Shown here: positions 1-46,266 of the stretch, one piece after another
How positions within the stretch are numbered: the first letter of the stretch is position 1
Layout: every line of letters starts with the position of its first letter
NCBI GenBank assembly: GCA_004519485.1
Contig: CP038135.1
Span: 1-64,000, forward strand
From: Nannochloropsis oceanica
Lineage: Eukaryota; Sar; Eustigmatophyceae; Eustigmatales; Monodopsidaceae
Direction: 5' to 3'
DNA: 64,000 nt
Notes under the pieces: model-generated
Databases searched by the model: none
Told to the model about the DNA's origin: nothing
Seen by the model: the letters and a program-made list of their open reading frames with translations, nothing else
Program-made: the position numbers and the translations under genes

Positions 1-206
1 CTAACCCTAACCCTAACCCTAACCCTAACCCTAACCCTAACCCTAACCCTAACCCTAACCCTAACCCTAACCCTAACCCTAACCCTAACCCTAACCCTAA
101 CCCTAACCCTAACCCTAACCCTAACCCTAACCCTAACCCTAACCCTAACCCTAACCCTAACCCTAACCCTAACCCTAACCCTAACCCTAACCCTAACCCT
201 AACCCT
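1..206. repeat. Telomere, (CCCTAA)n
   Basis: About 34 uninterrupted copies of CCCTAA run from the first base to 206, after which the sequence changes abruptly. Read outward this is the TTAGGG type of telomere, with the G-rich strand pointing off the chromosome end, so base 1 side is the physical tip. No variant repeat is seen inside the tract. The telomere type is shared by animals, fungi and many protists and does not fix the lineage. Confidence 0.97.
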
Positions 207-625: not shown

Positions 626-3600
626 CTATGGCGAGGTGTAGATGTAGCCTCCTTCCACCACGGCGGCAAGTTTCTGTGAGTGGTGGATAATGGACAGTCG
701 ACAGTACAGGATCAGTAGATGACGACCCTTGATAATGCATCAATTCACGATGTGACCAGCATTTACAACCATGGTGTCGTGCACCTTGCATAATGCCGTG
801 CATTAGATCACGTACCGTGCCGTCGGATGAGGATACAATCGACTGCCAATCACGTGCACCACTGCTGTTTCGCTCAGTCCAGGTGACGCCCGAGTCGGTC
901 GACGTATAGGTGTAGCCTCCATCTACCACGGCGGCAAGTTTCTGTGTGTGATTGCGTAACCAGTGGGTCGTGACGCGCGTCAGATTGAGCCTTACGTCGG
1001 AAGTCTTGACGAGATATTCATTCATAACGTAATCTGAATTTTTGATGGTGACGTCGTGCACATTTTATCATTATTAACAGAGCCTTACGTCGAAATTCTT
1101 GACGAGACATTCATTCATGATGTAATCTGAATTCCTAATGGTGACGTCGTGCACATTTTATCATGACCTGTGTTCGAACACGTACCGTGCCATCGGATGA
1201 GGAGGCGATCGAATGCCAGCCACGTTCACCACTGCTTTGCTGCGTCCAGGCAACGCCCGAGTCGGTCGACGTATAAATGTAGCCGCCATCTACCGCAGCA
1301 GCAAGTTTCTGTTGATCATTGAAAGTAGCACACGTGGATGAGATTAAGCTATACTTTACGACCCTTGAAAAAAAATAGACACATTTATCATACAACCAGC
1401 TTTCACAAAGACGTGTCGAGCATCTTGAAAGATGCCCCACATTCGTGCACGCACCGTGCCATCCGATGAGGACGAAACTGAATGCCAGTTTTCCGAACCA
1501 CTGCTGCTTTGCTGTATCCAGGTAAGGCCCGAGTCGGTCGATGTGTAGATGAAGCCTCCAAAATTAACTCCAGCAGCAAGTTTCTGGGTAGTTGAGTAGG
1601 TAGTCGAGCTTATGAGATGGAGAAATACACCGCGACAAGAAGTTGCCACACTCTGCGAATAGCATTCACACCGATTACGTCATGCATCATGTCTATTGTC
1701 CTGCAATACACTTACCGTGCCATTGGACGAGGATGCGATCGAATACCACAAACGTGAACCGCTGTCGGCTCGCTCCGTCCAGGTGACGCCCGAGTCGGTG
1801 GACGTATAGATGAAGCCTCCAAGTACGACGGCGGCAAGTTTCTGTGGGCAGTTGGATAGTCGATTGAATTCGATATTTGAGAAACAAGACATCACGAACC
1901 TTGACGTGACATCGAGCCACTAGCTTTCAGAACTCTATCGTCGTACATCTTGTGTAATGTCCTGCATTCAAATACGTACCGTGCCATCGGATGAGGACGC
2001 AATAGAAATCCAGCTACGTGAGTCACTGTTGTTTTGCTGCGTCCAGGTAACACCCGTGTCAGTCGACGTATAGATATAGCCTCCTTGTACCACGGCGGCA
2101 AGTTTCTGTGGGCAGTTGGATGCGCAGTTGAACTTGAGTACGAAATTGCGACCTATGACGAGATATCCACACACCATGCAACTTATATTTACGACGTCGA
2201 TGTCCTGCATCTTGCATGATGTCCTGCATTCAAATACGTACCGTGCCATCGGATGAGGACGCGATCGATAACCAGTTGCGTGAGTCACTGTTGTTTTGCT
2301 GCGTCCAGGTAACACCCGTGTCAGTCGACGTATAGATATAGCCTCCTTGCACCACGGCGGCAAGTTTCTGTGGGCAGTTGGATGCGCAGTTGAATACGGC
2401 GCGTGAAGTTGAGTACGAAATTGCGACCTATGACGAGATATCCACACACCATGCAACTTATATTTACGACGTCGATATCCTGCATCTTGCATGATGTCCT
2501 GCATTCAAATACGTACCGTGCCATCGGATGAAGATGTTATGGAAAACCAGTCACGTATATCACTGTTGTTTTGCTGCGTCCACGTGACGCCTGGTGCTGG
2601 TGTCGGTGCTGTCGTGGGGCTCTGTGTCGGTGCTGTCGTGGGGCTTTGTGTTGGTGCTGTCGTAGGGCTCTTTGTCGGTGCTGTCGTGGGACTTAGCGTC
2701 GGTGCTGTTGTAGGGCTCATTGTTGGTGCTGTCGTAGGTTTTTGTGTTGGTGCTGTCGTAGGGCTTTGTGTCGGTGCTGTTGTGGGGCTCTGTGTCGGTG
2801 CTGTCGTAGGGCTCAATGTCGGTGCTGCCGTAGGGCTCAGTGTCGGACCTGCTGTCGTAGGGCTCAGTGTCGGTGCTGCCGTAGGGCTCAGTGTCGGAGC
2901 TGATGTTGTGGGGCTCTGTGTTGGTGCTGCTGTTGTGGGGCTCTGTGTCGGTGCTGCCGTAGGGCTCAGTGTCGGTGAAGTCGGAGATGAAGTAGGCGTA
3001 GCGGTCGGAGGTGGAGATGTCGGAGACTGAGTTGGACCAGCTGATGGATAAGCCGAGGGGTTGCTTGTCGGGCTTATGGAAGGAGATGCTGAGGGGGCTC
3101 CAGTAGCAGCCTCGACCACCTTGAAGGCTTCAAAATCAGGGTCAAGAATCAGAGTGCACTCTCCACCGCAGCAAAAGCACTGATTTGTTACCGTATTCCA
3201 GTTGAAGAAAAATGGAGTCGATTCATTCCCGTTGATCGAGCAATATTCGAAGCACTCCGTCGAGGTATCAATCTGCTCAGGATCCAGTCGGCGATGCTTG
3301 CCATTTATGTCACTGAGCGATTGCGGGTCATCCTCCGCATCCTTTGGTTCCAATATACGGCGACCTGGAGCAAAAGGCGCCAATTGTCCAGCCTCCAAGC
3401 ATCGCTGCCCCTCTCCAAAAAGTTGAAAGGGAATTGTGGGATTTCCGCTAGGGGCCGGGGTTGGAGCGCACGTGACAGGCTTCGACGAAGCGTGTTTGCC
3501 CACCTTGTCGCCTGGATATCGCACACGCAAGACTGTGGGCTCGGCCAAAGGTACATCACAGTAAGTGGACAAGTCCGTCGCGTTGACAAGATACGCCAAG

Positions 3601-4007
3601 GCCGTGACATCAAGCACCTCAGGTGCACAGTTGTCGGCGATAACCATTGCCTGGAAGATGCGCTTGGAGTTCTTTTTGACATGAAAGTCCGTCCAGTAGA
3701 CGGCCGTTGTCCCATCCGGGTTCTCAACGCTCTGTGCCGGGGAGAAGACGCGGGACGGGCGAGCCCTCAGCTTAACCGCAGACAAGCCAGCGGGCAGAAC
3801 CATCTTGAAATTAACGTCTTGCGCGGCTTGCTTGCTTTGGACTCTGACGGTGATCTTGGCCTTCTGTCGGCCTGCCACGATCCCGCGCTTGAAATTGGGG
3901 CGTGCCTTGGCGTCAAGAACCAGACGGGGACAGTCCTCGGCGACGGCAGGCGGTGCCCAGGCGCCGCCTAGGGCTGCAAGCAGGGAGAGTATCACGGGCA
4001 GGTGCAT
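626..4007 (-). CDS. Secreted Pro/Thr-stalk protein with Asp-box beta-propeller
   Basis: Hand-spliced to 8 exons and 764 residues: 2517-4007, 2242-2367, 1980-2105, 1716-1841, 1455-1583, 1186-1308, 816-941, 626-673. All junctions are phase 0. A signal peptide (residues 1 to about 23, cut near AVA/E) leads a region resembling bacterial DUF11-type Ig-like folds. A short Cys cluster follows (about 247-285, ECFEYC then CFCCGGEC), somewhat like a WSC domain. Next is a stalk of SPTTAPTQ-type repeats (about 300-470), probably O-glycosylated. The C-terminus has Asp-box repeats (S-x-D-x-G-x-x-W, as TSTDSGVTW). Each middle exon encodes one 41-43-residue repeat running from KLAAVV to SSSDGT. Exon 1 ends with the second half of a repeat. 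Exon 8 encodes only the first half (KLAAVVEGGYIYTSP) and then stops. The domain order suggests a cell-surface or wall adhesin or sugar-binding protein. Ligand unknown. Confidence 0.75.
816..2517 (-). repeat. Tandem array of Asp-box exon plus intron units
   Basis: Exon 3' ends lie at 2517, 2242, 1980, 1716, 1455, 1186 and 816, so the unit is about 261-275 bp, apart from a 370-bp interval. Exons are 123-129 bp and start and end in phase 0, so whole units can be gained or lost without shifting the frame. The introns are copied along with the exons. The units ending at 2242 and 1980 and their introns are almost identical apart from an indel of about 19 bp. Units nearer the telomere are more diverged. 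Confidence 0.85.
987..1164. repeat. Duplicated 85-bp segment inside a propeller-gene intron
   Basis: Positions 987-1071 and 1080-1164 are the same 85-bp sequence with scattered differences, 93 bp apart. They lie wholly in the intron between the exons 1186-1308 and 816-941. The extra copy accounts for most of the 370-bp interval in an array whose other units are near 265 bp. Confidence 0.85.
2591..2976 (-). repeat. 24-bp minisatellite encoding the SPTTAPTQ stalk
   Basis: Units of about 24 bp, each encoding eight residues of the type S-P-T-T-A-P-T-x, with some units lengthened or varied (SPTAAPTL, SPTTAGPTL). The period is a multiple of three, so copy-number change alters stalk length but not frame. 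The complementary strand is also open (GAVVGL repeats), a by-product of the repeat. Confidence 0.85.
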
Positions 4008-4261: not shown

Positions 4262-4574
4262 CCGTAGAGCTCTATATCACTTGATGCTTCCGAGTAGCTC
4301 CTTGTTGGGGCTGCTGTGGGGCTTCGATTCGGTGCTGCCTTCGGGCTCTGTAACAATATCGGCCTGCAAAGGTGCTTTCTGGCTCTCATTCGATGCTTCT
4401 CGGTGCTCTTCGTGTCGGTAACAGGGAGCTTGCAAAGACCATTAGTGGCGGCGAGGCGCTAATACACTTACAAAGAACTCTTGCTGGAGGCAAATACCTG
4501 ACACCCTGTGATAGTAGGATGCGCTGCTGGTATCTTACTGAGTCCTCCGCACAGTAATCATAGCATTCCTGGTC
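4262..4574 (-). pseudogene. Eroded fragment related to the propeller/stalk gene
   Basis: Minus-strand frames here hold short pieces matching parts of the gene just downstream: a Cys cluster (ECYDYC, then CKC) like its ECFEYC/CFC region, and Pro/Thr stalk-like pieces (SPTAAPTRS, PNRSPTAAPT). The pieces are in different frames, and I see no signal peptide or Asp-box sequence with them. An alternative is a short exon set of a still active gene, since plausible splice sites flank a 33-base gap between the two Cys pieces. That would be very short for an intron, so a remnant is preferred. Confidence 0.4.
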
Positions 4575-5928: not shown

Positions 5929-6428
5929 TCTTCTCAAAGGCGCCGTGCTTATCGCTATCATATTTGATGTGCAATATGACAACAAGGAGAGGTTTACTGA
6001 ATAAAATTACAACCGGCCATGCCTTGGCAAATGATAAAGTTATCGTTGTTTCACTCAGCCGCACCCATAAACTTCACGGTGACGTCTTTTGAGTCTTTAA
6101 GCTCTGCAGTCACCGAGGAGTGACCAACTAAGGTACCATAATTCCCATAAGAATCGTTGAGGCAGCCCTAGACACTCCATTTATCCTTGTTGGCCTTACT
6201 GATGTTAAAATCTTGGTTGAGGTACGAATCTACGTCGGGTGAGCCATCGTGAGGGCGAAGATGATACCAAGGATAGGCCATGAAAATGCGCGATCTATGG
6301 TGTTTCACACGGGAGTTTTTTTTGCTGTACTGGTGTGAAGCGTTAATAAGAGGAAGTTTAGTGCTTTTACTTCTAGAGTAGCTGCTTGACCAAATACTTT
6401 GCTACATACGATTTAAGTTCCGTCTGGG
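5929..6428. other. Mixed-composition spacer between opposite-strand tracts
   Basis: Ordinary, fairly AT-rich sequence between the pyrimidine tract and the purine tract. I see no gene, RNA or repeat in it. It would be the loop if the two flanking tracts paired with each other. Confidence 0.4.
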
Positions 6429-9074: not shown

Positions 9075-11530
9075 ATGAGACTATCTCTCTTGCAAACACC
9101 AAATTCCATGCAGGTCGCTCTCCTAGACGAGACGAGCACACACAGCATGATCCCTCCCGACAAATACAATATGGCCTATGGTACGTGCAGGCGGTGGTAC
9201 CCGCGTGCATTTGGTGTTTTCCGAGGTGTGCGTATGGCACACTCCTTTTCAAACTGATCTTTCCCTGCTCCCCGTTTTCGATTCGGTGCATGTGCTTTGA
9301 TAGTACGCCGAGCACGATATCGGGGCTGTGTTTGCGTGCAGTCGGTAGACATGATCTCTGTTCCATGCCACAAATTATACTCATAGGCACACAATTTCTT
9401 GCTCTGTCCCTTCCCGCCTACCTCACAGCCATCTTCTACCTAAACGGCATTGCCCAGCTCTACCCTTGGAATGGTAGGTGATCTTTCAGGGTGGTGATTA
9501 TTCCTCTTATCGAAGCATCTGCTCTACGTGTTTTGACTTTCTCGTAGTCTCAAAATGTCTTCCCGTCCCGTCCAATACTCCACACACACTTCGGCAGCAT
9601 TTATCACCGCGGCTAGCTACTACGCTCAGCGCTTCTGTGGCACCGCTCGCCAACACGATTTTGAGAACTGTACGTTTTATTCCTCCTCGTGTAATAATTA
9701 CCAGGAAAAGTCAGGGAGCTACCCTATTGGTTGTGTCTCTCCGGCCATTTGGTTGGGGTATTGAGGTGTGTTTTGCTTGTCCACCCCCCTTAATCTCCTC
9801 GTCGTGCTTGTCACCAATCTTGAACCCCCCTTATCACTTCACAATCGTTCTTCCCCTCCTTCGCAACAATCCATTTCCCAGTCTTCTCCCTGACCTTTAT
9901 GGCCAGCAATCTGCTCTTCCAAGCCCTCCTCGTCCGCCACGCCAAGGCTGCTGCCGAGCACAGTCTCACCCGCCGCATCGTCCTCCCCCTGGCCCTCCTC
10001 CTCGCCCTCTTTGCCGCCACCGCCGCCCTGGTCCTCGTCATAGACATCCCTCGCAATTTTCTCTTCGCTTTTACTGCTATCTGCGTGGCGCTATGCGGGC
10101 TTTGCACGTCGCTCCTCCAGGCGGCCATCTTCGGGTATGCCGCTGTCTTCCCGCCCAGGTACACCCAGGCCATGATGGCGGGGCAGGGGCTCGCTGGCCT
10201 GATTGTGGCCTCAGCGGGCCTAGTTACGGCGGTGATCAGTCGAGCAAATGACGTGTGCGTGAGCGTGCGGTCGAAGGCGGACGTGCAGAGCGGGGGGGAG
10301 GAAGGAGAGCCGGAGGCGGTGTGTGCGGGCTACAAGCAAGTGGACTTGAGCGCCTTCGCCTACTTCGGGACGGCCGTGCTGGTCCTGGGCGTGTGCATAA
10401 TCTCATTTCTCTTCCTCGAGAGAATGCCCCTAGCCCAATACTACACCAGCAAAAGCAAGCTCTTGGCTGCAGATGCCGAGGCAGGAACAGCAGCAGCAGC
10501 AGCAGCGGGAGGGTTGGAAGGGGTGGAAAGAGGGCAGGCAAGGGCCACAGTAGCGAGTAAAAGCGGTACTAGCAGCGGTACCAGCAGTGACAGCAGGAGT
10601 AGCAGCGGAGATAACACCGAGGATGCGGGCACCCCGCGCAGCGACGAGGAGCTAGGGAAGGGAGGGAAGTCAGGAGAAGATCAAACGGAGGAGTGGGAGG
10701 AGGAGGAGGAGGAAGAGGAGGAGGACAGCGACGATGAAGGTAGTATTGGAACACTCGTTGGTATCTTGCCGGCCCTGGATCCTTGCGCGGCCCTCCCACA
10801 CTTGGAGCCATCTTCTCCGCTGCTGAGGGCGGAGGAAGGGGAGGATGGGCAGGTACTCGAGAAGAGCGTCATCCGTCAGCATAAAAGCAATGCACCGATT
10901 TTTCTGCTTGACTCTACCACTGAGGCTTGTGCGCATCATTCCAACCGCCACCACGGCCATCACCCTCACCAGCACGTGGCTTTTGTGGACCTCCTTCGGC
11001 TCCTGGGTTCGCCGGGCGTGGCCGTGTTCCTGGTCTTCTTTGTAACCCTGGCCCTCTTCCCCTCCACTACAGTACACATCTTCTCCGTCTCCCGATGCGA
11101 GAGTGACAGCATTTTCTTTAACCAGGCATTCGTTCCCTTTCAATTCCTTCTTTTCAATCTGGGGGATTGGGGCGGCCGGACTCTAGCGGGTCACCTGCCT
11201 TCGCGCTTCCTCCCCCCCTTCCATCGCCTGGGCTTGTACGCTGCTGCCCGCGTGATGTTTTTTCCCCTTTTCCTCCTCTGCAATGTGGAAGGCTCGGCGT
11301 TTCCGGTTGTCTTCGCCGAGGACTGGTGGCCCACCCTCTTCATGATTGCTTTCTCTTTCAGCAATGGTTACCTCTCTTCCTTGGCCATGATGACGGGACC
11401 AGCGCAGTTGCCACCAGCTTTGGCGGAACGAGGGGGGAATGTGATGGTGCTGCTGATGACGGGAGGATTGAGTGCCGGCTCGCTGTTGTCATTCGTGGTC
11501 TCGGCGATTAGTCTGGGGAAGAAGATGTAG
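9075..11530 (+). CDS. ENT: Equilibrative nucleoside transporter (SLC29/ENT family)
   Basis: Hand-spliced exons 9075-9180, 9429-9473, 9598-9669 and 9882-11530 give 623 residues in one frame. The joined N-terminus reads PPDKYNMAY / AIFYLNGIAQLYPWNA / FITAASYYAQRF, which matches the ENT first membrane segment and its conserved PWN motif. Further on, FPPRYTQAMMAGQG followed by LAGL matches the ENT TM4-5 hallmark (SGQGLAG in animals). About ten or eleven hydrophobic segments are expected. Between TM6 and TM7 lies a long hydrophilic loop with an Ala run, a Ser/Gly tract and a glutamate run (about 10480-10730). ENT proteins carry their large cytoplasmic loop in this place. Start: ATG at 9075 or the in-frame ATG at 9108. 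It probably moves nucleosides or nucleobases across the plasma or an internal membrane. All three introns lie in the first 223 coding bases. Confidence 0.88.
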
Positions 11531-12428
11531 GAAATGAGGGCTGGAGGGAATACGTAAGGACTCCGTGGGAGGGATGGGGGGGAGAAAATGGGGAGTGAGA
11601 ATTAGAAGCTTGGTAATGCTGTGCATGGAGCGGGGGAAGTGTGTACATAGCATCTTTATGTGATAAATTGTCCACTGAGTTTTGCGCATAGCGAATATGT
11701 AAAGACAAATCGAATAGCGGAAAAAGTGAAGCAGTTGTACTTATGATTGTGTTCCTTCTTTTCTTCGTCTTTTCATCGCCATTTCTAATCCCTTGTTCCT
11801 CGTCAAGTTCTCCCAGTTACACATCCTCCTATCAGTCCATCCTTTTCCTCTTATCTTCCACGTACACATGGTGGCACCCACCAGGATGAAGGCGCGGTCT
11901 CATAATAGGTCGGCTCTTCGTGGCCATTATCTCTACTCGTGGTGTGCACAAGCTCCCGCTCATCCTTGTCCCTAGATCCAATCATCTGGGGCCGTCATGG
12001 CATCATTGTCCATGAATATCAGGGTAGCGAGGGTGGGGTACCCAACTATTTTGCTTGAGGACAGATATTTAAGAGCTGCGCTTGCAATACCAAAAAAAGT
12101 AAATTATTTAGTTGAGTTAAGTTGATTTTCCCCATGGGCCCAGAGGTCAACCTCCTCCCCCATCCTGTCCTGTACTTCGTCGACCATCACATCATCATAC
12201 GGCCTCCACTCCTTTCCATTACTCTAGAGACTAAAAAATAACGCCACCTTCTTTCCATGTCGTTCATTGTCTTACAAACAGCTTCGAGGTAGCTGACGGG
12301 CAGCCTCCGAAAGAGAAAACTCAGCGCACTTGACACGAATTCAGCGAGACGTTCCTTCATCATGCATCCGCGTTTTTCGTTCTCACACGTCCCACCCCAT
12401 CCATACTCTCGATTACCACAGGAGAACT
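11531..12428. other. Intergenic spacer before the ATM gene
   Basis: About 900 bases between two plus-strand genes. It should contain the transporter 3' end and the ATM promoter and leader. The frame upstream of the ATM start stays open to an earlier ATG at 12330, which I treat as leader because the conserved N-terminus begins at 12429. No RNA gene or repeat is seen. Confidence 0.4.
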
Positions 12429-15400
12429 ATGGCGGGCAGCCGTAAGGCTATGGCCATCTCCTCGTTGAATGAGGCGCTGTATGCATTGGTCCAGCCAGGT
12501 TCTCGGGCCGTGGATAAAAAGGAAGCGGTGCGTTACATCACAGAAGTCGCCTCCGACCCCAAACGTGCAGCCACCATCCTCACCAAGGCGGGTCGCTGGG
12601 AGGAAGTCGTGCAAACAGCTCTTACATACGTACAAGATGAGGTCCGGAACAGCAAGAGCAAGCGAGCCCAGCAAGAAGACGTGGGCTTATTCCTTCTGGG
12701 GCTGGTCCGACGTGCCCCCCTCAAGGAAGGAGCCTGGCCTCTGGTGGCGCATGTCGAGGCCTTAGTCACAGACGCGCTGGTCCGGATAGACCACACGACT
12801 ACAGCGGGAAGTGCACTTCAACTACTGGAGCTTGTTTTGAAAGAGCCCAAGTATTGCGAGGGCCTAAGTCGACGGTTGGCGGAACATTGTCTGGACTGGT
12901 TGATCCGGTCCCTGGAGGACGACGACGAGGAGGGGGGAGTATTAGGAGCGTCCACTGCCACGCGGGCGAAAGCTCTGGCCAATTTGGTGGCCAATTATCG
13001 GCGAGACTTTACCTCAGGAGGGGATTGGAGCGGCGGCGGGTCGTCTGCTAACGGCAACGCACGGTTGATACGGATGGTGGTGCGATTTGCGGGCAAGTGG
13101 GCAGGACGGCATGGGATCGCGGAGGCCCGCAAGGCCGGTGTCAACGTATTTCCGGACGTAGCAGAAGAGGTGCTTACGACGTTAAACACCCTGCTGCTGA
13201 AATATGGGGTTGACTGCGCGCCCCATCTAACCCTGGGAGAGCACGACCTAGACATGAGCTACGGGGAGGCCGTCTTGAACCTGGCCCTGCAATGCTGCCC
13301 CTACATGCACGCATCCAAGCGGCCCACCTTCCTCGAGCACCTCCGTCTCCAGCTACATCTTGCACGAGCGCGACTGGCCTTGGCTCATCCCTGGGCTCTC
13401 GACCCGAGTGACTACGTGTCGTCACATCTCGACCAGATGTGGGAGGTGGCGCTGCAGGACTGTGTGGGCAACGCGGGGCAGCATGCGCGGGCCACAGTTC
13501 ATGGCGTGGGGGGCAGAAAGGGAAGGGGAGAGACATGGTTGCCTTTGGAGTACAGGGAGCGGTTGGCGCTGGTGCTGGCAGCGGAGGTGTTATTAGCCAT
13601 GCGGGTGAAGAATGCGACGAGCAGGGCGGGGGGGAAGCAGGCGGGGAAGAGGAGGAGGAGGAGACCACAGGAAGGAGGGGGTCCGGGCCTTGGGAGGGAG
13701 ACGACCTTGGAGATGGCGGGGGATAGAGAAATAGCTCATGGAACTTGGTCTCGTGGGAGGGGTTCGGCACTTGGAGCGTCGTCTCAGGTCAATAAGCACC
13801 CACGGATGGAGCCTGCGAGGGGCAGCATTGTGGGTTTTGCACGAGGAGGAGGAGGAAAAGGAGGAGGGAAATTTGGAGAAGAAGGGTCAACTGCCACATA
13901 CAGCTCCTATCTGGAGGAGCAAGACCCGGTGGACCGTATCTTGGAAGCGCTAGGCACAGCTTTTAAGGGTAATCTGTGTAGTAGCAGCAGCAGCGGGCGT
14001 CCTGCCTTGGGACGTGGCCCTTTGTTCATGGGTTGTGGTAGTGGTGGAAGAGTAGGTCCGACACAAGTGACACAAGGCGGCGGCGGAGAAGGAGGGGGAA
14101 TCACGCAGTCTACACTTGGGAGCAGCGTTGGGGGGAGAGGAGAAGGGGCTGGAGGAGGAAGGGGGGGTTCGAATTCTACGCTTGCTTATTTGCAGATATT
14201 GACGGCGGTGTTGGAGAATCTGCCGGTGGGGGGGGAGGGATGGGTGCTGGACGGCAGTGTGCAGGGTAAGGGCTTGCTGGATATGGTGGCGTTGCTAGAG
14301 GGGGGCTTAGCGTCACGAGGAGAGGGCGTTCTCTTGATGTGGACCGTGGCCGCTCTGCTAGCCTTGGCACAAGTGTGCATCCGGCGTCCGGCAGTCACTG
14401 CATCTCCAACCCAACTCCGCGCGGCGTGGAGCAGCGTGCTGCATATCCTCCTTCGACCCGACCTGAAGTGCTGGTCGACAACGGGCCGGCTGGACGTGCA
14501 TGGCCTAGGGCTGGGGGAGGGGGTCCTCCGCCTGCTGGCCATCATGGTGAGGCATCCTGTGCTTCTCGGTGATACAGACCTGGCTCGAGCGCGAGACCAA
14601 TTGTGGGGCTTGCCGGCTTTTCACACAGTGCAAGACTCGGCGGGGTCCTTGGCGTTGCTGCATGCCTTGCTGCGACGGGGGGGGGTGTTGGACGGGCCGG
14701 ATGGAGTGGCGTCGAGATTGTCCTTGGGCGGAAACATTGGCGGGCGGGTGTCGTGTGGGTTTTTGGATCACTCTCCTGTGGAAGGCGATTGGGGGGATTA
14801 TGGAGTAGAGAGAGAGGGAGAGAGCAATGGAGCAGTAGCAGTGGCGCAACGGCAGCGGCGGAGCTTGCCGCAGCCGGGGAGTCGAGTGGAGCGTGTAGGA
14901 GATTATTTGATGGCTTTGGTCTGTCGGCAACTGCTCTTGTCGCGTGCAACGGTAAGAGATAGATCCAAAGCTATCTTTAGGGCGTTGGCAGCGTTGGTGG
15001 ATTTGCTAGAGGCCTCGCGTTATCAGTTGTCGCCTTTGGGGGTTGGTGAAAATGAGAGAAAAGGAGGAGGAGGAGAATGTGGAGGCGGAGAGGAGGGAAA
15101 GCCATCATCATCCTTGTCATCTTTTATGGTAGGGAAGCTGAAATGGTCATTGACGAGTCCATGGAGGACGCTGGCAGAGCAACAGGGGCAGAGGCAGCTG
15201 ACAGCGTTTCTAGAAGGAGGAAAAAGGAATGAAAATGGTGACAGCAGCATCAGCAGTGGTTCTGAGGGTGATGGAGGGGAGAGTGGGGCGGTCAGGATGC
15301 ATTTTTGTTTGCATGGACAGCGCAACTTATGGCGGGGCGGGAGTATAATTGGGAGTGGCGAGGCTGGCACGTCATTCTCCTTGGCCGTCGCCACAGGCGC

Positions 15401-18400
15401 AGCAGGAGCAGCAGGAGCAGCAGCAGCAACAGCGGCGGGCGCTGGAGCCTCGATTTACCCGAGGGGATTAAGTCCTGCTTTGCAGGGTGTTACGGTCAGA
15501 TCAGGAGCTGTAGCAGCAGTAGTGCCCAAAGTGTGCTCGGCTGGAGGGCAGCCCTTGCGACGGCGACGACGAGGAGGAGGTAGTGGTGGAGGAAGGTGGG
15601 GGCTGGGAGCAGGGGGGGGAGGGGTAGCGGGAAGAGGAAGCGCACCAGTACAGGTAGGAGGGGTGGCTCTGCGGGTGGTCCGGCACCTGGAGGCATTGAC
15701 AGAGGCGGCCTGCACGTCTTTGTTTGGCATCAACGACAGCAGCAACGGGGTAGGGATAACAGCTGGCAGTAGTCAGGGTACTACCTCTCTGTCAATAGGC
15801 TCGGCACTGTCTTCCACACAAGGGGCGGGGGGTGATGCTTCTGCTTTGAGCGGGGAGGGCGCTCGGGTGGCCTTGCTTCTGCTTGTAAAGACTATGTTTG
15901 TCTTGTTGGCTGTCAAGTTGGATCAAGCCACCGTGGAGACAGGTTATGATTGGGACGAAACAATGATTGACGCTCTGGAGGATTTCCCACCAGGTGTCCC
16001 CCGCATTATGTCTTTGGCTACACGCGTACAGGAATTGCTCGGGAGGCTGGCTGAATGCTTGGATCGAATGCCTTGGCCCAGGCTGGAGAACAGTAGCCGA
16101 CGACGAGGGGGAGGAAAAGGGGGAAGAGGAGCGAACCCTGACGAGGTGGTGGAGGCGGGTGCCTTGGTGTTGGATGTTTTTAGTTCTCTCCTGGAAGATC
16201 TGCCTTTGACTTTTGAGGGGCATGGATACGGGGATTTGGAGCAGGTAGGGTTGTGGGTGGAGAACGGAGAGGGAGGGATGAGGAGCGCGGGCTGGGGGGA
16301 GGAGAGGTTGCCTCGCGAGGCACTGAGTGTATTGCGTTTTTTCAAGAAGCGGGTAGATGATGCATTGACGTTGATGTTGCCAAGGGGGTTGGGAGAGGTA
16401 ACTGCTGGCGCTCGTGGAGAAAGGGATGAGGGGGATGGGGAGGAGGAGGATGACCTGATGGATGACGATGAGGACGAGGTATTTTCTGTGGCGCAGCGTC
16501 ACTTGTATGCCTCGAGTCGCACAGAGGACGACATGCTCATGGACGAAGAAGACAAGGACGAGGACGATGGCCAGGAGCAGCAACAGCGGATGCAGCAGCG
16601 GCAACGTCGGGAAAAGGGCGGGCGGGGACGGGGTGTAGGAGTTATACAGCGCGGAGACTGTGCCTTGGCATATGAGATTGCAGCCACTGGACGGTTCTCC
16701 GCGCGGGAATTGGCTTCGTACTCCCGTGTAGCCCTCGTAATCGATCCTAACAACTTGTACGCGCATCGTTTCGTCAAGGCGGTAAGCTCCCTATTGCTGG
16801 ACGAGCCGGGTTTGGATCTGGCAAGGTTGTGGCACGATGTCTTTTTCCTACTCGCGGACCCCGAGGAGTACGTCACGCACCTAGCGGAGCTCCAGCGATG
16901 GGTAAGTCAGGACCCCACTGCAGTGGCTAACTCTGCCTGGCGTGAGAGCTTGTCGAGGGCCGTGTCTGGTAGTAACTGCACGGAGGAGGGCGTGACGGTG
17001 GGACAAGAGATTCGGTTGCATCATTTATGGCGCATGCTGCAGCATTTGGGGAGCCGTCAGAGCCCCCGATGGCTAGTGGAGGGACTCGCCCCGGTCCAGG
17101 ATCGATTGTGGTCTTCATTTGAGCTTGTGGGGCGGAAGGAGTTGAGTTGGTATAATCGGAGCTTGGAAACGGATACACGAAAGGCTCTTTTTGAAGTGTC
17201 GGAGTCCGTGCGGGGCGACAATACCTCGCGCAAGCTTTTTTTGACTTGCTTGGTGCACAGCTCGAGGCACTGGGACAGCGAGGTCCGTTTTTCAGCTTCT
17301 CGGGCTTTGCCTGCCGTCTTTTCGGTGTACCCCAATAGCTTGAGTGTTTGGGAGCAGTATCGTCGCCAGGGCGTCTTGTCAGGGCCCGGAGAAGGCCCAG
17401 GTGCTGATGAGGCGGTTGATGTGGCGTCTCTTCCCCCCAACACCTCATCTCCGATTACCCCTTTCCCGATCGATTCGTTGCAGAGACGCCTGGGCCAGCT
17501 GATGGCGTTTGGGACTGCGGGACGGGCGTCGAACAAGGTAGCGAGATTGGCTGCTCTGGTACTGTGTCGATGGTGGGGAGCACCGGCAGGCGCGCCAGTA
17601 GCAGGCTCATCGTCTTCTCGCGAGGCGATTACAGCTGCAGCACGGGCGAGGGCAGCGAGAGTAGTGCAACCGATGGTGGAGGTAGTGTTGTCATCATTGG
17701 CCGGAGGTTTGGGCTACCCTTCGACGGCAAGCTTGCTACAGGAGCACTTGCTTTTCTTGATGCATGAGTGGTTGGTCGTCTTGCGTTTGCCATTGGGGGA
17801 TTTCCCACTTCATTTGGTATTGATGGGTGGGCGGAAGAGAGGAGCACATGAGATGATTGTTGCTTACGGCGAAGCTGCTACTGCTATACGAAAGAGGAGA
17901 AAAGGAGACGGACTTTCTGAGAATGGGGAAGGGGAGGGAGAGGAGGATGAAAAGGAGGGCGACCCATTTGAAGCTACAACGGCGAGATCAAGGGATGATC
18001 AGGAGGAAGAGACCGAGAATGCAGCTGCGCGGCAAGAACGATTGCTTAGGGCCTTTGTACGTGACGCATTGCCCATATTGGTGCCTCTAGCGTGCTTGGC
18101 TGGTGGCGGCTACTCGCTCACATATCGCCTCGAGTTGTTGGATTCTCTGGCTTTGGCCGCGGGGCTACCGTCCAAAGAGCTTCTCCAGCGACAGAAATTG
18201 ATGTTCGCGATCAATGAGGGGGAGGGCTTGCAGATTGAGGCTTGTCCGCGCAAGGATCGTCAGCAATCACGGCAGCAGCAGCAGCAGTCGGTTGTGCTTC
18301 GGGAGGGACGTGTGGCGGATGTTTTGGAGACACACATGGTGGAACTCAAGGCCCTTGAGCTACTGCTTTTAGCAGAATCCTCTCTCCACAACGCAGCCGC

Positions 18401-21400
18401 CGCGCAACTAGCAGACCTTCAGGCCTTTCTCTGTCGGTGCCTTCCTAAGGCCAAGAAGGAAGATTTGGAGAGCGGACTGGGGCTTGACGTGGCCAGGTAC
18501 CCGCAAGATGTGGTGGTGGCCATGATCGACATGCTCGGGCCTGAACCACCGGCTCTTCCCCCTGCATCTTCGAACACCACCAGCGGCAACAGTGCTTTGT
18601 ACACGCTTAAGCCCGCAGCCTTGGGTCCCGCCCTCCAAGCATTGGCTGAGCGGGTTTTGTACGCGCCACGGCTTCCTGCTACTGCTAGCGGTGAGGGAGG
18701 AGGAGGAGAGGTAGGGAAGGAAGGGTTGCAGATGGTAGATTTGACAGTGCTTTGGTCACAATGCAATCCCGTTGAGCTCCTGCTCCATCTCAAGGTGCGC
18801 CTCGCGCAAACCACGAGTCCTGCCCATGCCCGTCGCCTGCTAGAGCTCACCAAAGAGTTGCTATCAATGCTGGGGCGAGCAGGGCAAGAGCCTGCCGTGC
18901 TGTACATAGGGCTTCATCTACTGCTATGGGCTTTGGAGCGACACCCTGATACCCTCACCCTCCCTGGACTAGACTTATTGGAGACCTACCTTGATGCCAC
19001 TTTAAGTGACACCAGCGGCAGCAGCAGTAGTGGCGGTGGGGTCGGGCGTTTGGGTCCCCATATGGGGGCTTTGGTTGTCTCGCTGTTTACTGTCTTAGTG
19101 CGTCTGCGGGGCCAGCGGTATCAACATCGCGATGGGAGAGGAAAAGCGACGGAGCAGGAGGAGGAAGAAGAGCTGCTCTGCGGAGGGTCGTTATTCTTTC
19201 TTTCTGGTGGAGAACGGTCCGCTTCTAAGTTCTCGGAGGAAGAGGGTAAGGCGATTGCGGCCAAGGTGGTGGGGCTGTTGAAGCATCTGGTTATCGAGGA
19301 ACGTGGACTCAAGCCATACCTCGGTGAGCTTGATCCACTTCCAAGGCTTGGGGGAGGAGGGTGGTTGGGGGAGGAAGACGTGGAGCATGGGCTGGAGGAG
19401 GTGCGTAAAGCGATTGCACGTGTCACAGCCTCAGCCTCCGGCACCTCGTCGGCACGTTATCGTCATATGGGCGCCATTGATGAAGATCGACATCAGCAGC
19501 TTGTTGTGCACGCCAAGCGCTTTGCTGCTACCTTGGTTAGGAGCACGGGGCAAGGAAGGGCAGGGCAAGTAACGCGCCTGGTAGCTCTCAAGGCGCTGTT
19601 GACACGTCTTTCTCCCGTCTCTGCAATCACGTGTCAGCTCTCCTCTCAACGCAGTCCGCCAAAAGACCCAGGACCAGAGGTGCGGCGATTATTGGTTCCG
19701 GCATTGCTGGCTCTGTGTCGCGGTGGAGGTGAACAAGGAAGGGCTGCTACTGCTACAAGTGAAAATGATTTGAATGGGGGAGGGAGTGAGAACAATTCTT
19801 CGTCCAGCAGCCTCGAGGAGATGGCCGTACGTATTGACGCGGCGCGTGCTTTAGGGGCTTTAGGGACTGTGCCCCCTTGTGAATTGGTATTGTGGATGCC
19901 TTCAAGCAATGCACGAACATCTGTTCTACCTTCGCCCGCTTCCAGCAGCCGCGACAGCATAAAATCGACCTCCCGTCGTTCCTCGGGTGCTTCGTCCGCC
20001 ACTTCCTCCACGCCGTCATCCCTCGCATCTCCTTGTCAAGTCAGGGTGGGGAAAGCTATCAAGATTCTGCTAGGGATGATTACGGGCTCAGATGCCCGTG
20101 CTGTACAATTGGCGGTGGAGACGTTGCGGGCCACGCTGCTTCGTCCCGTTAACAACAGCGGGGAGGAGGAGTATTGGAGCGCAGGGTCTGCGCCAGTGCC
20201 ATGGGAGATTCGGCCTTGGGTGGAAACGGTATGGACGTCGGATGGGGAGGAGTTGGGGTTTGAGGCGCAAGATGCGGGTTTGTTGCGGTCGTTTGCCCGG
20301 TCCTCCAGCAAGCATAGCAGCCAGGCCGCAGATACTGTCTGGCAGTGGCAGCAACGAGAGGCCGAGGAAGCAGAGGCGGCCGTTGCATCTTCCCTGAGCT
20401 CGCCGCTCAAGCGGGCTGAAGCTGCACGTGCAGCCTCCGCACAGCAGCAGCGCTCTAATAGCAGCACGTTGTGGAGTCGGGGCGCGTGGGATCCAAGGCG
20501 ATGGTCTTACGAGCAGTGGATCACACAATTAGTTTGGACGCTGATAAGAGAGGGCATTATGACCAGGTTGTCAGCTGAGAAGGCGGAGGAGGCGCAGGAG
20601 GACGATGAAATGGTGGCTGTCCGGAGATTTTTAATTCAGTGCGGCGGGGCTTGTCGGAGCCAGCCAGCATTGGCCGAAGCCTTGTTCCCCCTTGTCTTAC
20701 TTTGTCTCCTGCGCCTGGAACCAAAATCATCTCTCATCGATTCGCTAGCCACCGGCACTCAGTTTAACAAAGGCGACAGCATGGGCGGTCGACTCCACCA
20801 ACAGTCGTCGATCCAACATAGCTTGACCCGAGAACGAGTGAATCTCCACCTTACGCGGTGTCTGCAATGGTGCCTTCCTCGGGCAGGGCCTCGACCGCTA
20901 CAAACCCTGATTGCTGCATTGGTCTTCCTCCGTACTCAAAGCATCCATGAAGCATTGCTACATTCCTCGCTCTCTACTGGGAGCGGGAGCAAGACGTCCC
21001 GATATCGTGGTGGGGTCGCATCGAGTTCTGCAGAAGCGGACCCCGCATCTCAACCACTAAGGGCACGCGAGGCCGTGGCAGCAGTGGGAGGGATGATGGG
21101 CTTAGGGTTGAACAAGTTGGAAGTGGTACGGGCAGCTTTGCGGTGTGGAGCGCTGACAGCGGCAGCGTTGTACTTGGAATTGCACGTGGAAGATGAGCAG
21201 CAACGTCATCAGGCTCAAGCCAATGACCACAGCGATGGCAGTGGTGGTGCTTGCAGGGAGAAAATTGGCGCTGGTAGCAGTTGCAGTGGTCGCAACAGCA
21301 ACGTCCCTACCACTACCAAGGAGCAGACACAACAGCACAAGCAAGAGCAAGCCGCCTTGTTGATGAACGAGTTAGGGGAGGTTCGTTCTCTTCTTCTTCG

Positions 21401-24400
21401 TATATCCGGGCGACTCGCGGAGCCCGACGGTGCGGAGGGCGTTCAAGCGGGCACGGGCCTCGAGGGGCGAACACGGGCGGCGGCTGCTCGCGAGAGTCCT
21501 GACTGGAGGCAAGCACTGGCCGCACACGACTGCCTCGTCCTCCAACGAACCCAAGGTGGAAATGGAGGTAGTACGACAGTTATGAGTGAAACAGGGGGAG
21601 GGAGTGGTGGTAATGGTCTTTTGGCAGGACCAGCGATCGCTTTGCAAAAGTTGGACTTGGGCCATGTGTTGGGTGCATATCTAGCCGGCCTTGAGACGCG
21701 GGCGCAAGCCAGCCATGAGGCAGCATTGAGGGAGCTAGAGTTTGAGACATCATGGCGTGCCTGCCGCTGGCAAAAGTTTGCGATGGGCGGCAGCATCAGC
21801 TCTAGTGGTGGGTCGAGTCCGCCTTCGGCATTACGGGGACCGCATTTGTTCGTGGCACGGCATTTTCCTCCCTCTGCTGCTGACTCATCCTCCTTGAATT
21901 CTCCGGAAGAGATTTTCGCAAGCGCTACCCCGCCTTCAGAGCTTAACGACGATTGCTCTCTTCGGGCATGGCACCGGGAGGGTCGGGCAGAGGAAGACTT
22001 GGTGGGTGGACCGGCGTTGAGCCTGCTTGGCCGACAGCGGTACCACGAGCATGTCCACGGCGGATTGCGCGCTCTTGCAGCTCAAGACCATGCTGGACTC
22101 GCCTATCACTTGCGGACTGCACGGTTGGGGTTGTTGTCGTGCTTAGCGCAGGAAGTGCCATCTGAGCCGAGTCGATTTTTATCGCCTGTGTTAGCGCGCT
22201 TGCAGTCCTTGCGCGAGATAGAGGAGGTAGCGGCGTTGCAGGTCATGGCTAAGGGCGGAAGCAGCAGCCATACCATGGCCGTGAATGACGACGTGGATTC
22301 TGCAATATCAGCTGTAGCAGGCAGCAGCTGCCTTGCCGACAGCAACGTGGACTTGACGTCAACTCGTATTGGGATTATTCGGCGAGGAGAGGCACATGCC
22401 TTGATTGCTGCATGGCACGCTCGGTCGCGAGGGGCAATGGAGGATGATTTTGAGCTGGTTGAACCTATTCTTGCCGTGCGTGAAATTTTGATCCGTGCGC
22501 TCTGCCCTCCCTTGGACGCGCGCCATGCGCTGGTGCGACATTCGCGCGGTCTTGCGGGTGCTGCACGTGCAGCGGGGAACCTGACTATTGCGGCAAGTGT
22601 GATGGATCGGGTGGAAAGCTTGTTGCTGGCGCCTGGGGCCAACACACCGGGAGCCCTGACTGTAGATCGCTGTGCTTGCAAATTAGAGCAAGCCCGCATT
22701 TTGTGGGCTAAGGGCGAAGCGGACTTGGCGATCCGTTCAGCGGCGGCGTTAGGTCCTGCTTTGGAAGCACTGGAGCGGTCGGCATTGGTGATAGAGCCTC
22801 GGACGCGAGGAATTGAGGTTCAAGCGCGGCAACTTGCGGGGCGATGGATGGCAGCAGCACGTTCCGAGGGCACGCAAGGCATTATTGACAGGCATTTGCG
22901 GCCTGCTGTGGAGCGCGCCGTCGAGGGGGGCGGCACATGCACGCAGCGGCGACGGGCGCACTTAACGCTGGCCAATTTTTTGACTGAGCTTCATCAGCGT
23001 CGCTCGGAGCGCCTCAAGTCCGAGGAGATGGTACGACAAGCTGAGCTGCTGCGGCAACGTAAGACGGAGCTGGAGGCGACTCAAAGAGAGTATGAAGGGG
23101 TGGGCGAAAAAGACCCGAAGCGTAGCGACTTGAGACGGCGAATCGGAGGTTTGAGAAAGGAGCTGGCCTTGGACGAGGCCGATTACAAAGCGCAGGTAAA
23201 CTCATTGTCTGGGCTTTCGCTGGATGCGCTGAAACAATTCCGTTTGGCATTGTGCTTGGAAGGGTTACCAGGCGGTGGTAAGGGAGGAGGAGGAGCAGTA
23301 GGGGAAAGAAGGAGCAGTTATGATGGCCATTGTAGCGCTTGTGTTGATGACGCTGACGGGGAGGAAGAGGAGAAGGACATTGGGGATGATAATGATGACG
23401 ACCTAGGGCCTATCTTTCGGGTGGTGGCGCTGTGGTTCGAGCCGGGCAACGCAGACAATCCAGCCGTGAATGCGGAGATGGCCAAGCTGGTGACTGAGGT
23501 GCCCACATATAAGCTTGTGCCTTTGATTTATCAGATTTTGTCTCGGCTTGGCTCTGGTACACCTGACTTTAGCAGTGCCATAGAGACATTGGTATTTCGG
23601 ATTTGTCGAGATCACCCCCACCACACTCTGTTGCAGCTTTATGCTTTGCGGCACGGGAAACGCTTGAATTCAGCGGCGGCGCGAGATACATATAACTGCA
23701 TGCCCCATTTAGAGGAGAAGGTACAGGCGGCGCAAGGAATCTTGGACCGGCTGATGGCCACTGGGAACTCGATACTGGAGGCGCTGGTCAAGAATACGGA
23801 GCGGCTCTTGGAGGGATACATCGGCCTGGCCTCCATCAAGCGCTCGCAGGAGATGAAGGACACTAAGAGCCTGACATTTGCTTCGCTCACGGCCGAGCCG
23901 GCTCTTGTCCGCAGCTTCCCTGACATTTTGCGGCGCGGCGCTGTGGGACCGGTCTGTGGGACTGGCAGCGGTGTAATCTTGGCAGCCTTACCTGCGGTGG
24001 TGAGCAGGATACCCCGGCTTGATCCATTTGCGCGATACGACGTGCAGGACGGAGACGGAAGCAGCAGCAGCCACATGCATGTGGTGCGGGTGGAGCGTTT
24101 CGAATCCCGCTTCATAAATTCAGACTCGGGTTTAAGTCGGCCCATGATCATAACGTGCTTGGGTACGGACGGACGGAAATATCGACAGGTAATCAAGGCG
24201 GACGATGTGCGCTCGGACGCTATAATGATGCAGGTGTTTGAGACAATGAACACCTTGCTCTCTCGCGACCCCCGCGCCCGCCGGCGCGCCCTGCATATTC
24301 GGACGTATCGCGTCCTGCCCTTGACGCCAGAGAGCGGTGTGCTAGAATTTGTGGAAAATACTAGGAATCTGAGCGGGCTACTGGTAGCTTCGAATGATCG

Positions 24401-30980: not shown

Positions 30981-33900
30981 TCATCTCATCCCCCCGGGAG
31001 GCGGACCATGGCCCATCCCGGGCGGCGCCCCCCCCATCGGGGCTCCCCCCATCGGCCCCCCCATGCCTACAGGCGGTCCCCCAACCCCGCCTCCTCCCCC
31101 GGCACCTCGACCCATCATGCCGATAAACTCACTATAGTTGTATTGCCCCCCTGAGAAGGCCGCCCGGTCCTCCACCAGGTTCCAATAAAACGACACAGCC
31201 TCCGGCCCACCTTCTCCCTCTTTCACCACTTGCAGCCCCATCCACCGCAACCCTCTCTCCTCCCTCAAACCCTGCACCAGGGCGTGCACTCTCTTCGCGT
31301 ACTCACTCCCTCCCTCCTTTCCTTCATGGTCCTCGAACACCTGCGCAAGCGCCGCTCCCTCCACCCCGTCCACGCTGGTCATGCCTCCAAACAGGCTCGC
31401 CAGCAGCTGGGGATCCGCCCTCGCCCCTACCCACAGATATAGCGAGACGCCGTTCTCGAGGAGATACAGCCCCTCGGAAACAAAGCGCTCGGCAGACAGG
31501 TTTATCGCTACGGGCAGTTTCACTTGTTTCTTGCCGACGGCAGGAGGGAGGGGGGGGGGAGGCGAGCTCCCGTCCATTGCGGGGGGAGGGGAGGGTGGAA
31601 GGGGAATGCCGACGTCGGGTTCGAGGGTGTGGAGGGCAAAGAGGTTGGGGTAGGTGAAGACGCGCGAAGTCTCCACGTTCATTACGGACAGGAGGTGCAT
31701 CATGTACACGCGCATGTCAGGTCGAATGTCGTTGCCTCCCCGGAAGGCCACGTTCTTGGTCAGTGCCATGGTATAGAGAGGCAGGAGCTGCAGGCTGGGA
31801 GGCAGGCCGGCCGGCTGTTGCTGTTGCTGGTGGTAGCTGCCCGGTCCTTGCGCTTGGTGGGGCATGCAAAATGCACGGCACGAGCGAAGGAGGTCGGCAC
31901 ATTGCTGGGTCAGACGATGCCGAGCAGCGTCCAGGCCTGTTTTGAGCACTACTTCCAACGAGCGCTTGGCCATCAAATTACACAGCGTGTCGACATCCAC
32001 GGAAGCGATCACCTCTTGCAGCACGGCCGTGACGGGCGCTGCCACCGTGTGCACCCGAATGCGGCGTTCTCCCGTGGAGGAGGTGTGGAGCAAGGCAGCC
32101 TGCACACAAATCACCGAGGCCGTCAAAAAAGCTTCGTCGTGTGCCATTTCCACGCCAAACACACTCTCGCTCGAGCAATTCGGCAAGGCCAACAGGTCCG
32201 TTCCTCGAATGTAATAATTACCATAGAATTGCGTTACCTTCAACCCCCTCGTTGCCCTCACCCGCATCACCGCCTCAAAGCCCGTCGGCCTGGTCAATAA
32301 CGAGCCAATCTCCTCCCCCATCTTCCGCCCATCGCCCTTTTCCACGCTGAACCCCGGGTAGTAAAATAAGTTCCCGCCCGTGAACTTGGGCAAAGCCGCC
32401 AGTGACGCCAGGTCTGTATAGGGAGACTGTTGCCCCGCCGGCGCCGCTACAAACAAATCCACCGAAATCTGCACCCGTGAGAACTCAACGGCCTTTGTCC
32501 GATACCAGCTCTCCTCCGGGTTGAGCATGACATGTTCCCTTTCCGTACCCAGCGCCCGCAACTCCTCCCGGTGCTTCAGGCGACCATCCCCCAAAGTGGG
32601 CATGGTGGCGGTGACCACGCACATCTTTCCTCCCACGGGCGCCATGACCCGGTAGGCGCCCGTCAAGGCCGGCCCTAGGGCCGCTTCCATGTCGCGGGTC
32701 TTCTCGTACATGCCCGGGAGGGCTTCCAGGAGGGAGTCGATCACCTCCCGAGACTCCTTTAAATTCACCAGCAAGTCCTCCGGCAGGGGCAAGAAAAGCT
32801 CGGATATGTCAGGGATGACCAGCACCTGGGGCATCTTTAGCGTGGGTTTGAAGTGGTAGAAGTGCACGGTGGAGTCGAATGTGACCAGGCCAAACTGCGT
32901 CCGGGGGTCGCCAGGAAGGGCATCGAGGTGTCTCTTGATGATCTCCACCGTGCAGCCCAGCGCTCCACTTGCCACGGCGCCATACGACACGTCCAGCACA
33001 AACACATACACAGGTGGTTGAGGTGGCCTTACCATATACTCCCCCGGCGCCACCAACTCCACCGAGCCATTCGAAAGCTCCGGCCGCTCGTGCTTATCCC
33101 TCCTCTGGCCCGCTTGGTCAACATGGTGGAAATAAGAGGAAGGGACGTCATTCAAAGTCCCACACACGTTGCACCGCCACCGTCGGCCCGCGTCATGCCA
33201 CGACACAAAGGGGTTGATGTACGTTCTACACTTCTTACAGCGTACGATGCCCGTGGCCCCGAAATTCACCACATCTATCGAATCCTCCCCTGAAGCATCC
33301 AAGGCCATGGGCTGAATCACCACCCCCAACGGCAGCTTCGTCGCGGCCGCGTTGTTCTGACTGTTGGGGATCTTGCTGACCGTGAACCGCATAAATCTTG
33401 GGTTGGAAGCAATCGACAAATCCACTTCCGATAGCATCGGCAACTGGTTGGCATTCTCCATCCCCGGCATGTTGCTGCCTGAGGACATGGAAGGTACGCC
33501 CATCCCCGGCGGAGCACCACCAATTGAGGTATCGAGGGAAGGTGTGCGATAGTGCCCTGGAAAGCCTCCACCGGTACCCGCACCGGCGGGAAGGCCGACC
33601 GTGTCTTGCTGGGGGTAGGGAGAGGCGGAGGGTGGCTTCATCATTGGCGGGGGAGGCGGCTGCTGCTGCTGCTGCTGCTGTTGGGGAGGACGCAAGCCCA
33701 TTTGAGAGAACTGGCCAGCGAGCTGTTGTACTCCAGGGGGTCCTCCTGGTGGAGGTGGGGGTTGCTGCTGCTGCTGTTGCATCATGTTGGGAGAAGGGGA
33801 GGGTCGGCCCATCATAGGAGGAGGGGGATGCCCAGGAGGGGGAGGAGCACTACCACCGGGGACTTGATGGAAGGGAGCGGCGGGGCGAGGGGGGGGGTGT

Positions 33901-34535
33901 TGGGCCATGTGAGTACCAGGGTGAGAAGGAGGAGGGGGAGGGCGGGGAGGGCCATTGGGGCTCATTCCTTGAACGGCGGAGGGAGGCCGCATGGGAGGGG
34001 GAGGAGGCGCCATAGAGCCAGCGGGCATGCCCGCGTGAGGACGGGGAGAGGCCATAGCCATCCCTCTTGGTGGCTGCGAAGGAGGTGGATGCTGCTGCTG
34101 TTGATGCTGTACCTGGCCATACGTGGCATTGGGGGTCGCACCGGGGGCTTTGGGAGGACCGAGAGGCGCTTGCTGCTGGGGTTGGCCACCGTGGAAAGGT
34201 GGAGGGACGGGAGGAGGGACCTTCATCCCCATCCCCCCTGAAGAGGGTGCACCCGGTGGTGGAGGTGGCATTGGCGAGGTAGGGGGGCCGCCGCGTGGGG
34301 CCTGCATCATCATGCGAGGCGGCGCAGGGGCTTGCTGCTGCTGGGGATGGTGGGGAGGCGCACCACCGTAAGGGGCAGGTTGTCCGGGAGGAGGGCGGGG
34401 AGGGCCATACGCGCCAGGACCTGCAGGCGACTGCTGTGACTGATACCCTTGCTGCGGTTGCTGGGGGTAGCCGGGAATGTGGCCCGGCGGTCCGGTGCGG
34501 GGAGGATGTTGCTGCTGGTGCTGGTACTGCTGGGG

Positions 34536-34594
<59 letters not shown>

Positions 34595-46233: not shown

Positions 46234-46266
<33 letters not shown>

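Follow-up and report, generated by a model that had tools for sequence, protein, structure and literature searches.

Exon organization of the window gene

The first 64,000 nucleotides of contig CP038135.1 of Nannochloropsis oceanica (assembly GCA_004519485.1), hereafter the window, contain a minus-strand gene (4007-626) that would code for a protein with repeated Asp-boxes. Scripted splicing gave eight exons, 764 codons and a stop codon, with every junction in phase 0: the six inner exons (exons 2 to 7) measure 126, 126, 126, 129, 123, and 126 nt (41-43 codons), and each of them contains one whole S-x-D-x-G-x-T/A-W box, Ala replacing Thr in one of the six. Exon 1 terminates in a half repeat (GVTWTQQ...SSSDGT), and the last exon codes for 15 residues, KLAAVVEGGYIYTSP, followed by the stop. 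Read from the sequence of the gene, the N-terminus is hydrophobic and a Pro/Thr/Ser-rich stretch is present. The original prediction of eight exons, with six inner phase-0 exons each carrying a whole repeat, was thus reproduced exactly, and the two half repeats that it described, at the end of exon 1 and in the last exon, were both seen in the spliced sequence. Since the plan recurs at six more loci of the same genome (see below), it is not a product of chance, and from its conservation we infer that the window gene is spliced in this way.

Paralogues with the same exon plan

The whole genome (29.3 Mb, 32 contigs) was searched using two repeats as query, and the loci behind the 50 matches were read individually. 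Six further genes were found on three other chromosomes: three on contig C13, two on C15, and one on C6. A second query recovered these arrays and no others; isolated weak matches, C19:243k (35-37% identity) among them, were set aside. At all seven loci exon 1 carries part of a repeat, six repeat exons follow, and a short exon concludes the gene. The C6 gene (L036, C6:1110k) is broken, with a stop in one exon and damage in two; at the six intact-looking loci the inner exons are 126 nt long in 34 of 36 cases and a multiple of three in all 36. Among the 40 measurable introns that follow inner exons, 31 contain an in-frame stop, 28 would shift the frame, and two do neither; their GT and AG ends were used in finding them and are not independent proof of splicing. 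The long first intron of the C15:840k gene was read by eye for a hidden exon and no further unit was seen. The number of whole units is therefore held at six in the algal family.

Bacterial relatives and repeat number

Scans for relatives of the repeat revealed 14 loci on viral contigs and 47 in bacteria, 41 of the latter with E 2e-28 or better and up to 76% identity; the repeats follow one another in contiguous frames. Uncultured bacteria, including Patescibacteria, carry the repeat widely (L039-L079, L086-L097). Whole runs of at least five boxes, counted with redundant loci and the weak loci L080-L085 kept, contain six boxes in 46 of 59 cases and thirteen in five. With a laxer motif, duplicates removed and the weak matches L080-L085, L098, and L099 dropped, whole runs of at least three boxes number six in 37 of 57 and thirteen in 8 of 57; the remaining runs have 3, 4, 5, 7, or 12 boxes, and three of the four sevens are sixes by the stricter motif. 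The thirteen-box array L039 was predicted as two rings (predicted local distance difference test, pLDDT, 89.3; predicted template modelling score, pTM, 0.62), and its residues 4-303 and 304-587 each match seven-bladed chains.

Blade seams and predicted ring closure

The contiguous bacterial relative L040 was predicted as a closed seven-bladed ring (pLDDT 95.5), and the strands of the algal repeats were placed by means of this model. Placed in this way, the exon seam falls between strands 1 and 2, and each inner exon codes for the last three strands of a blade (2-3-4) and the first strand of the blade that follows. The unit carried by an exon, originally described as one blade, is a circular permutation of a blade. 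Likewise, the closing blade does receive contributions from the ends of exon 1 (strand 4) and of the gene (exon 8, strands 2 and 3), and its strand 1 comes from exon 7, so that three exons and not two halves build it. The order along the chain, with a lone strand 4 first, strands 1 to 3 last, and n-1 boxes, suits the 1+3 "Velcro" closure, which is usual for Asp-box propellers (PMC2716378; published work is cited here and below from excerpts). Strand order and the L040 model together support the predicted 6+1-bladed ring with closure through both chain ends, which is standard for this fold.

The last exons stop shortly past strand 3 at all seven loci (..TSP, ..TYK, ..THK, ..IYT), and the contiguous bacterial proteins L060, L067, L068, and L073 end near the same point. 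Because six inner units and a short last exon are found at seven loci out of seven, the short last exon is, judging by sequence, the designed end of the gene and not a truncation, in agreement with the original prediction.

Turnover of the repeat units

Trees of 34 exons, of their introns, and of whole units were built after dropping the C copy (near-identical to B) and the two damaged exons of the broken C6 gene. All of them group by lineage (window; C13; C15; C6), although the unit tree supports the window group better (94/93) than the exon tree does, where its support is weak (47/38). Some positional pairs persist inside C13 and C15. Grouping by the same position across five genes was put to the test at positions 2, 3, 4, and 7 and rejected at each of them. 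In the window gene, introns 1 and 2 share 99% identity across 136 aligned bases, compared to 58-67% for the remaining pairs of the first four introns, and introns are also alike across lineages: 412 pairs among 40 match at E<0.01, compared to none in five letter shuffles. In the intron between exons 6 and 7, the longest of the window gene, there is a direct duplication with a period of 93 bp (window 987-1164). As read from these trees and from the rejected groupings, units were turned over separately in each lineage, the count staying at six. Growth of the gene by addition of whole-blade exons, which had been suggested, is not supported, since this turnover left six units at every locus. We infer that ring geometry locks the exon number.

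Codons 31 and 33 change faster than introns

Two codons of the unit, 31 and 33, differ far more between units than the introns do. Pairwise, they diverge by 0.63 in two of the C13 genes, by 0.63 in the C15 pair, and by 0.81 in the window gene, and the introns of these genes by 0.165, 0.244, and 0.39, respectively; the codons diverge 2.1 to 3.8 times as much as the unit introns, having been chosen from the same data as tested. Bootstrapping gave ratios of 3.8 (2.9-5.2) for C13 and 2.6 (2.1-3.2) for C15. A cross-check was made on 132 bacterial units from 34 loci (the weak matches L080-L085 left out), in which the three most variable positions are 31, 33, and 7; using these three positions, the ratios to introns are 3.1, 2.3, and 1.8. 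Relative to the gene-wide synonymous expectation, non-synonymous change is 2.7-fold at codon 31 and 2.9-fold at codon 33, with p values corrected for 42 codons of 0.0009 and 0.0005, which are approximate as units recombine. Both yardsticks agree: the within-gene proportion of synonymous differences (pS) is 0.145-0.157 and 0.256-0.291, versus 0.165 and 0.244 for introns. Trp32, located between the two codons, is invariant. The C copy, the broken C6 gene, and window exons 5 and 6 (129 and 123 nt) were not included in these codon tests.

In the L040 model positions 31 and 33 start strand 1, the innermost one, position 5 ends strand 2, and positions 7 and 8 lie in the loop between strands 2 and 3. 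Positions 31/33 and 5/7/8 are on the top face, and the exon seams and the chain break are on the bottom face. In Asp-box propellers the top face is described as variable and functional, loops 1-2 and 3-4 forming a conserved bottom (PMC2716378). In four out of five genes the seven blades carry seven distinct 31/33 pairs, and in the fifth there are five. What is new here is that, at sequence level, codons on the top, putative binding face outpace the unit introns in divergence.

N-terminal domains, stalks, and surroundings

The N-terminal domain of the window protein (type I) gave no Pfam match at E<=5, and its profile gave no PDB match at E<=5. It was found at 13 other places, three of them the C13 propeller genes, plus a 22-residue fragment. 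One of two C12 copies (L101, C12:1101846) and the C14 copy (L103, C14:903945) consist of this domain, a stalk, and then a Hint-type domain, which in the C14 copy matches Vint (PF14623, E 4e-9). An intronless paralogue (L038:827-3175; C9:310827-313175) has the same N-terminal domain and stalk joined to a different Asp-box blade family; counted by eye, it contains six boxes and split ends, terminates in LASSP, and five of its six boxes are of a short kind without Gly. Further matches to this second blade family lie at C23:24326, C23:65701, C7:1034704, and C8:377744. The C15 and C6 genes carry a different (type II) N-terminal domain, which has its own copies elsewhere. Propellers and other modules thus share stalked fronts, one intron per blade being a feature of one propeller lineage. 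Four adjacent N-terminal domain copies with very long TPTA stalks were also observed (L104-L107, C16:833603-850382).

The coordinates of the features of the window gene are listed in Table 1. Telomere repeats (window 1-206) lie 420 bp from the end of the gene, and just upstream of the gene there are decayed type II N-terminal remnants with stops on the minus strand (window 4439-4573 and 6018-6212). Other genes of the window code for a nucleoside transporter (9824-11527, plus strand), a PI3/4-kinase-like protein with FATC (12297-25310, plus strand), a Sec23/Sec24-like protein (30984-34676, minus strand), and a Tra1-like protein (38817-46646, minus strand). The genome contains 36 matches to light-harvesting proteins, as expected of a phototrophic eukaryote.

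Table 1. Features of the propeller gene, in window coordinates.
Feature	Position	Strand	Basis
Exon 1, residues 1-497: hydrophobic N-terminus, N-terminal domain, Pro/Thr/Ser stalk, half repeat	2517..4007	-	open frame and splice
N-terminal domain (type I), Cys-containing	3108..3938	-	profile searches
Pro/Thr/Ser-rich stalk, ~172 residues	2592..3107	-	splice; 24-bp tandem repeat 2600-2977
Half repeat GVTWTQQ...SSSDGT (closing blade, strand 4; blade 1, strand 1)	2517..2591	-	splice; bacterial model
Codons 31-33 (variable, Trp, variable), exon 1 half repeat	2544..2552	-	counted from sequence
Intron 1	2368..2516	-	splice; 99% identity to intron 2 (136 aligned bases, 13 gapped)
Exon 2, whole repeat unit	2242..2367	-	splice
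Codons 31-33, exon 2	2269..2277	-	counted from sequence
Intron 2	2106..2241	-	splice
Exon 3, whole repeat unit; 94% identity to exon 2	1980..2105	-	splice, comparison
Codons 31-33, exon 3	2007..2015	-	counted from sequence
Exon 4, whole repeat unit	1716..1841	-	splice
Codons 31-33, exon 4	1743..1751	-	counted from sequence
Exon 5, whole repeat unit, 43 codons	1455..1583	-	splice
Equivalent of codons 31-33, exon 5	1482..1490	-	counted from sequence
Exon 6, whole repeat unit, 41 codons	1186..1308	-	splice
Equivalent of codons 31-33, exon 6	1213..1221	-	counted from sequence
Exon 7, whole repeat unit	816..941	-	splice
Codons 31-33, exon 7	843..851	-	counted from sequence
Exon 8, 15 codons and stop: strands 2 and 3 of closing blade	626..673	-	splice; similar last exon in six paralogues

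Proposed model and alternatives

The exon plan, the constant count, the unit turnover, and the fast change of codons 31 and 33 are established at the level of sequence. The interpretation that we favour, and consider likely, is that of a secreted mosaic protein whose closed seven-bladed Asp-box propeller is made of interchangeable exon units and serves as a ligand-recognition module tuned at codons 31/33. Its parts would be the N-terminal domain, a Pro/Thr-rich stalk, and the propeller, with secretion as a presumed feature; exon 1 would supply strand 4 of the seventh blade, and exons 7 and 8 its strands 1 to 3. Phase-0 unit exons, each with its own intron, would duplicate, convert, and turn over within a gene, and such exchange would preserve frame and fold because the bottom face is where both kinds of break are found, the seams in the 1-2 turn and the chain break in the 3-4 turn, each of them a conserved turn. 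The need for ring closure would hold the count at six whole units. The top face would be left to vary, chiefly at the residues on either side of the invariant Trp where strand 1 begins, and a ring could thus present up to seven different residue pairs around its channel and might recognize a ligand in an HNWD-like manner (see below). The seven loci would probably represent a small algal gene family in which six near-identical exons build a ring-shaped, secreted protein. A wider proposal, which we put forward tentatively, is a class of closed-ring, exon-shuffled recognition genes: swappable blade exons, their count locked at seven by geometry, would carry one hypervariable pair per blade and create a gene-specific binding surface, on stalks and N-terminal domains shared with other modules.

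Several observations weigh against this interpretation. The predicted structures are those of the bacterial relatives L040 and L039; bacterial arrays with five and with seven boxes exist; and the exon 1 piece of the broken C6 gene, unlike that of the other six loci, begins earlier and has its own box. As for codons 31 and 33, the interval of the window-lineage ratio of 1.8 spans 1 (0.89-2.65; four units), no codon was significant in a per-site synonymous/non-synonymous test, and overall change is purifying-like (0.62). Synonymous change at codon 31 is raised too (5.7 versus 1.4 expected), and of the seven positions at which exons 2 and 3 differ, six lie in nt 90-105 and three of these six are synonymous; since the raised synonymous change goes together with differences clustered in 16 bases, a conversion patch or a mutation hot spot at the codon 31 region may contribute. 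Part of the variability of both codons may also be relaxed constraint, since the same positions vary in bacteria.

The most serious competitor is a wall protein with a structural or adhesive role, its codons 31 and 33 being simply tolerant or mutation-prone and nothing being recognized. Pro/Thr stalks are common in surface proteins, and the per-site test and the synonymous change at codon 31 also speak for it. Nevertheless, mere tolerance should not surpass the neutral rate, and in two lineages the joint rate of the two codons is 2.6 to 3.8 times that of introns and each codon exceeds the synonymous rate, by yardsticks that agree, with Trp32 between them never changing; we regard a wall protein as possible and the less probable reading. 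It is rather unlikely that the six units were simply inherited and kept by length-neutral gene conversion, ring closure playing no part. All seven loci may indeed descend from one array, and in the C15 pair exons 5, 6, and 7 still group by position. However, the far more diverse bacterial relatives peak at six as well, and at thirteen, which is predicted as two sevens, and the intronless paralogue L038, of a different blade family, also has six boxes and split ends by eye.

Two further explanations concern the origin of the gene structure. Introner elements repeatedly inserted at one site of an intronless repeat would account for the likeness of the family introns, but exon and intron trees show the same main lineages, as predicted by whole-unit duplication, and one intron used as query, in a search of limited reach, matched only itself and one C13 intron; such insertion seems very unlikely. 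Least probable of all, and hardly credible, is that erosion close to the end of the chromosome truncated the last exon and that a deletion left the half repeat of exon 1 behind. The gene does lie in an unstable region, close to the telomere repeats and with decayed relatives just upstream, but six internal loci (C13, C15, C6) have similar short last exons and half repeats in exon 1, and contiguous bacterial proteins have similar ends. Chromosome-end truncation was consequently rejected on the basis of the like ends at internal loci.

Under the favoured model of a closed ring of exchangeable units, exon number would be a direct readout of protein geometry, seven loci having retained six whole units each through unit turnover, and what fixes repeat number becomes testable by counting exons across strains. 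The repeat-exon genes compared here build open arrays, whereas the algal array must close. If the codon 31/33 face binds ligands, this would be a microalgal family of diversified recognition proteins, of a kind so far reported from fungi and, as leucine-rich repeats (LRRs), from brown algae.

Comparison with known systems

The window protein contains the repeated Asp-box motif S/t-x-D/n-x-G-x-T/s-W (consensus from PMC2716378). Against Pfam, whose bit cut-offs are score thresholds and not structural features, it scored 22.2 bits with BNR_6 (PF15899), below 27, compared to 37.1 for L040; with PSII_BNR (PF14870), the Ycf48/HCF136 model, it scored 17.8 bits, below 27, and yet this is the closest fold for L040. 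None of the eight Pfam families listed for the spliced protein reaches its cut-off. A BNR_6 search of the whole genome gave no match, the window gene included, and this 14-position model is thus uninformative. The family resembles the Ycf48 and GH74 branches of Asp-box (BNR) propellers in the box in the 3-4 turn, the 1+3 Velcro, the seven blades, and the conserved bottom and variable top, and differs from them in its near-identical blades, one exon per unit, and stalked context; no catalytic site was identified, no search aimed at one having been made.

No exon-per-blade propeller family was found among the literature matches listed. Highly repetitive propellers, of which the Asp-box group makes up 5% in the set described, likewise have blades amplified from a single unit, and in Bombyx DPPY a blade was doubled by single-exon amplification; their blade number varies widely, and the excerpts describe no family of one-exon blades at a constant count (PMC9218822). 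The exon-per-repeat LRR genes of brown algae (PMC11378527) and Tetrahymena (PMC6564038) share with the window family the coincidence of repeat and exon, a uniform phase, unit duplication, and candidate recognition proteins as products. They are described as LRR solenoids in phase 2, in contrast to closed rings of Asp-box repeats in phase 0, and in Tetrahymena the number of 90-bp exons varies (PMC6564038), while here it is constant at six.

The fungal HNWD WD40 sensors (HET-D, HET-E) are described as having highly alike blades, concerted evolution, and a few hypervariable codons on the interaction surface (PMC12222747), and the window family may be similar to them in these respects. In HNWD the hypervariable codons are under diversifying selection; for codons 31 and 33 of the algal unit, selection shows against the gene-wide synonymous rate and does not show in the per-site test. 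Blade identity within a gene averages 69-82% at the amino acid level in five algal genes, and it is >80% to 100% in HNWD (PMC12222747). As described there, HNWD proteins are intracellular NOD-like receptors (NLRs) with HET and NACHT domains and a variable number of WD40 repeats, the excerpts mentioning no intron for each blade, whereas the window family is built of Asp-box repeats, and no HET, NACHT, or WD40 Pfam match was found in the window protein. By analogy, HNWD would be the nearest working counterpart: the window family is not a member of that group and may work like one.
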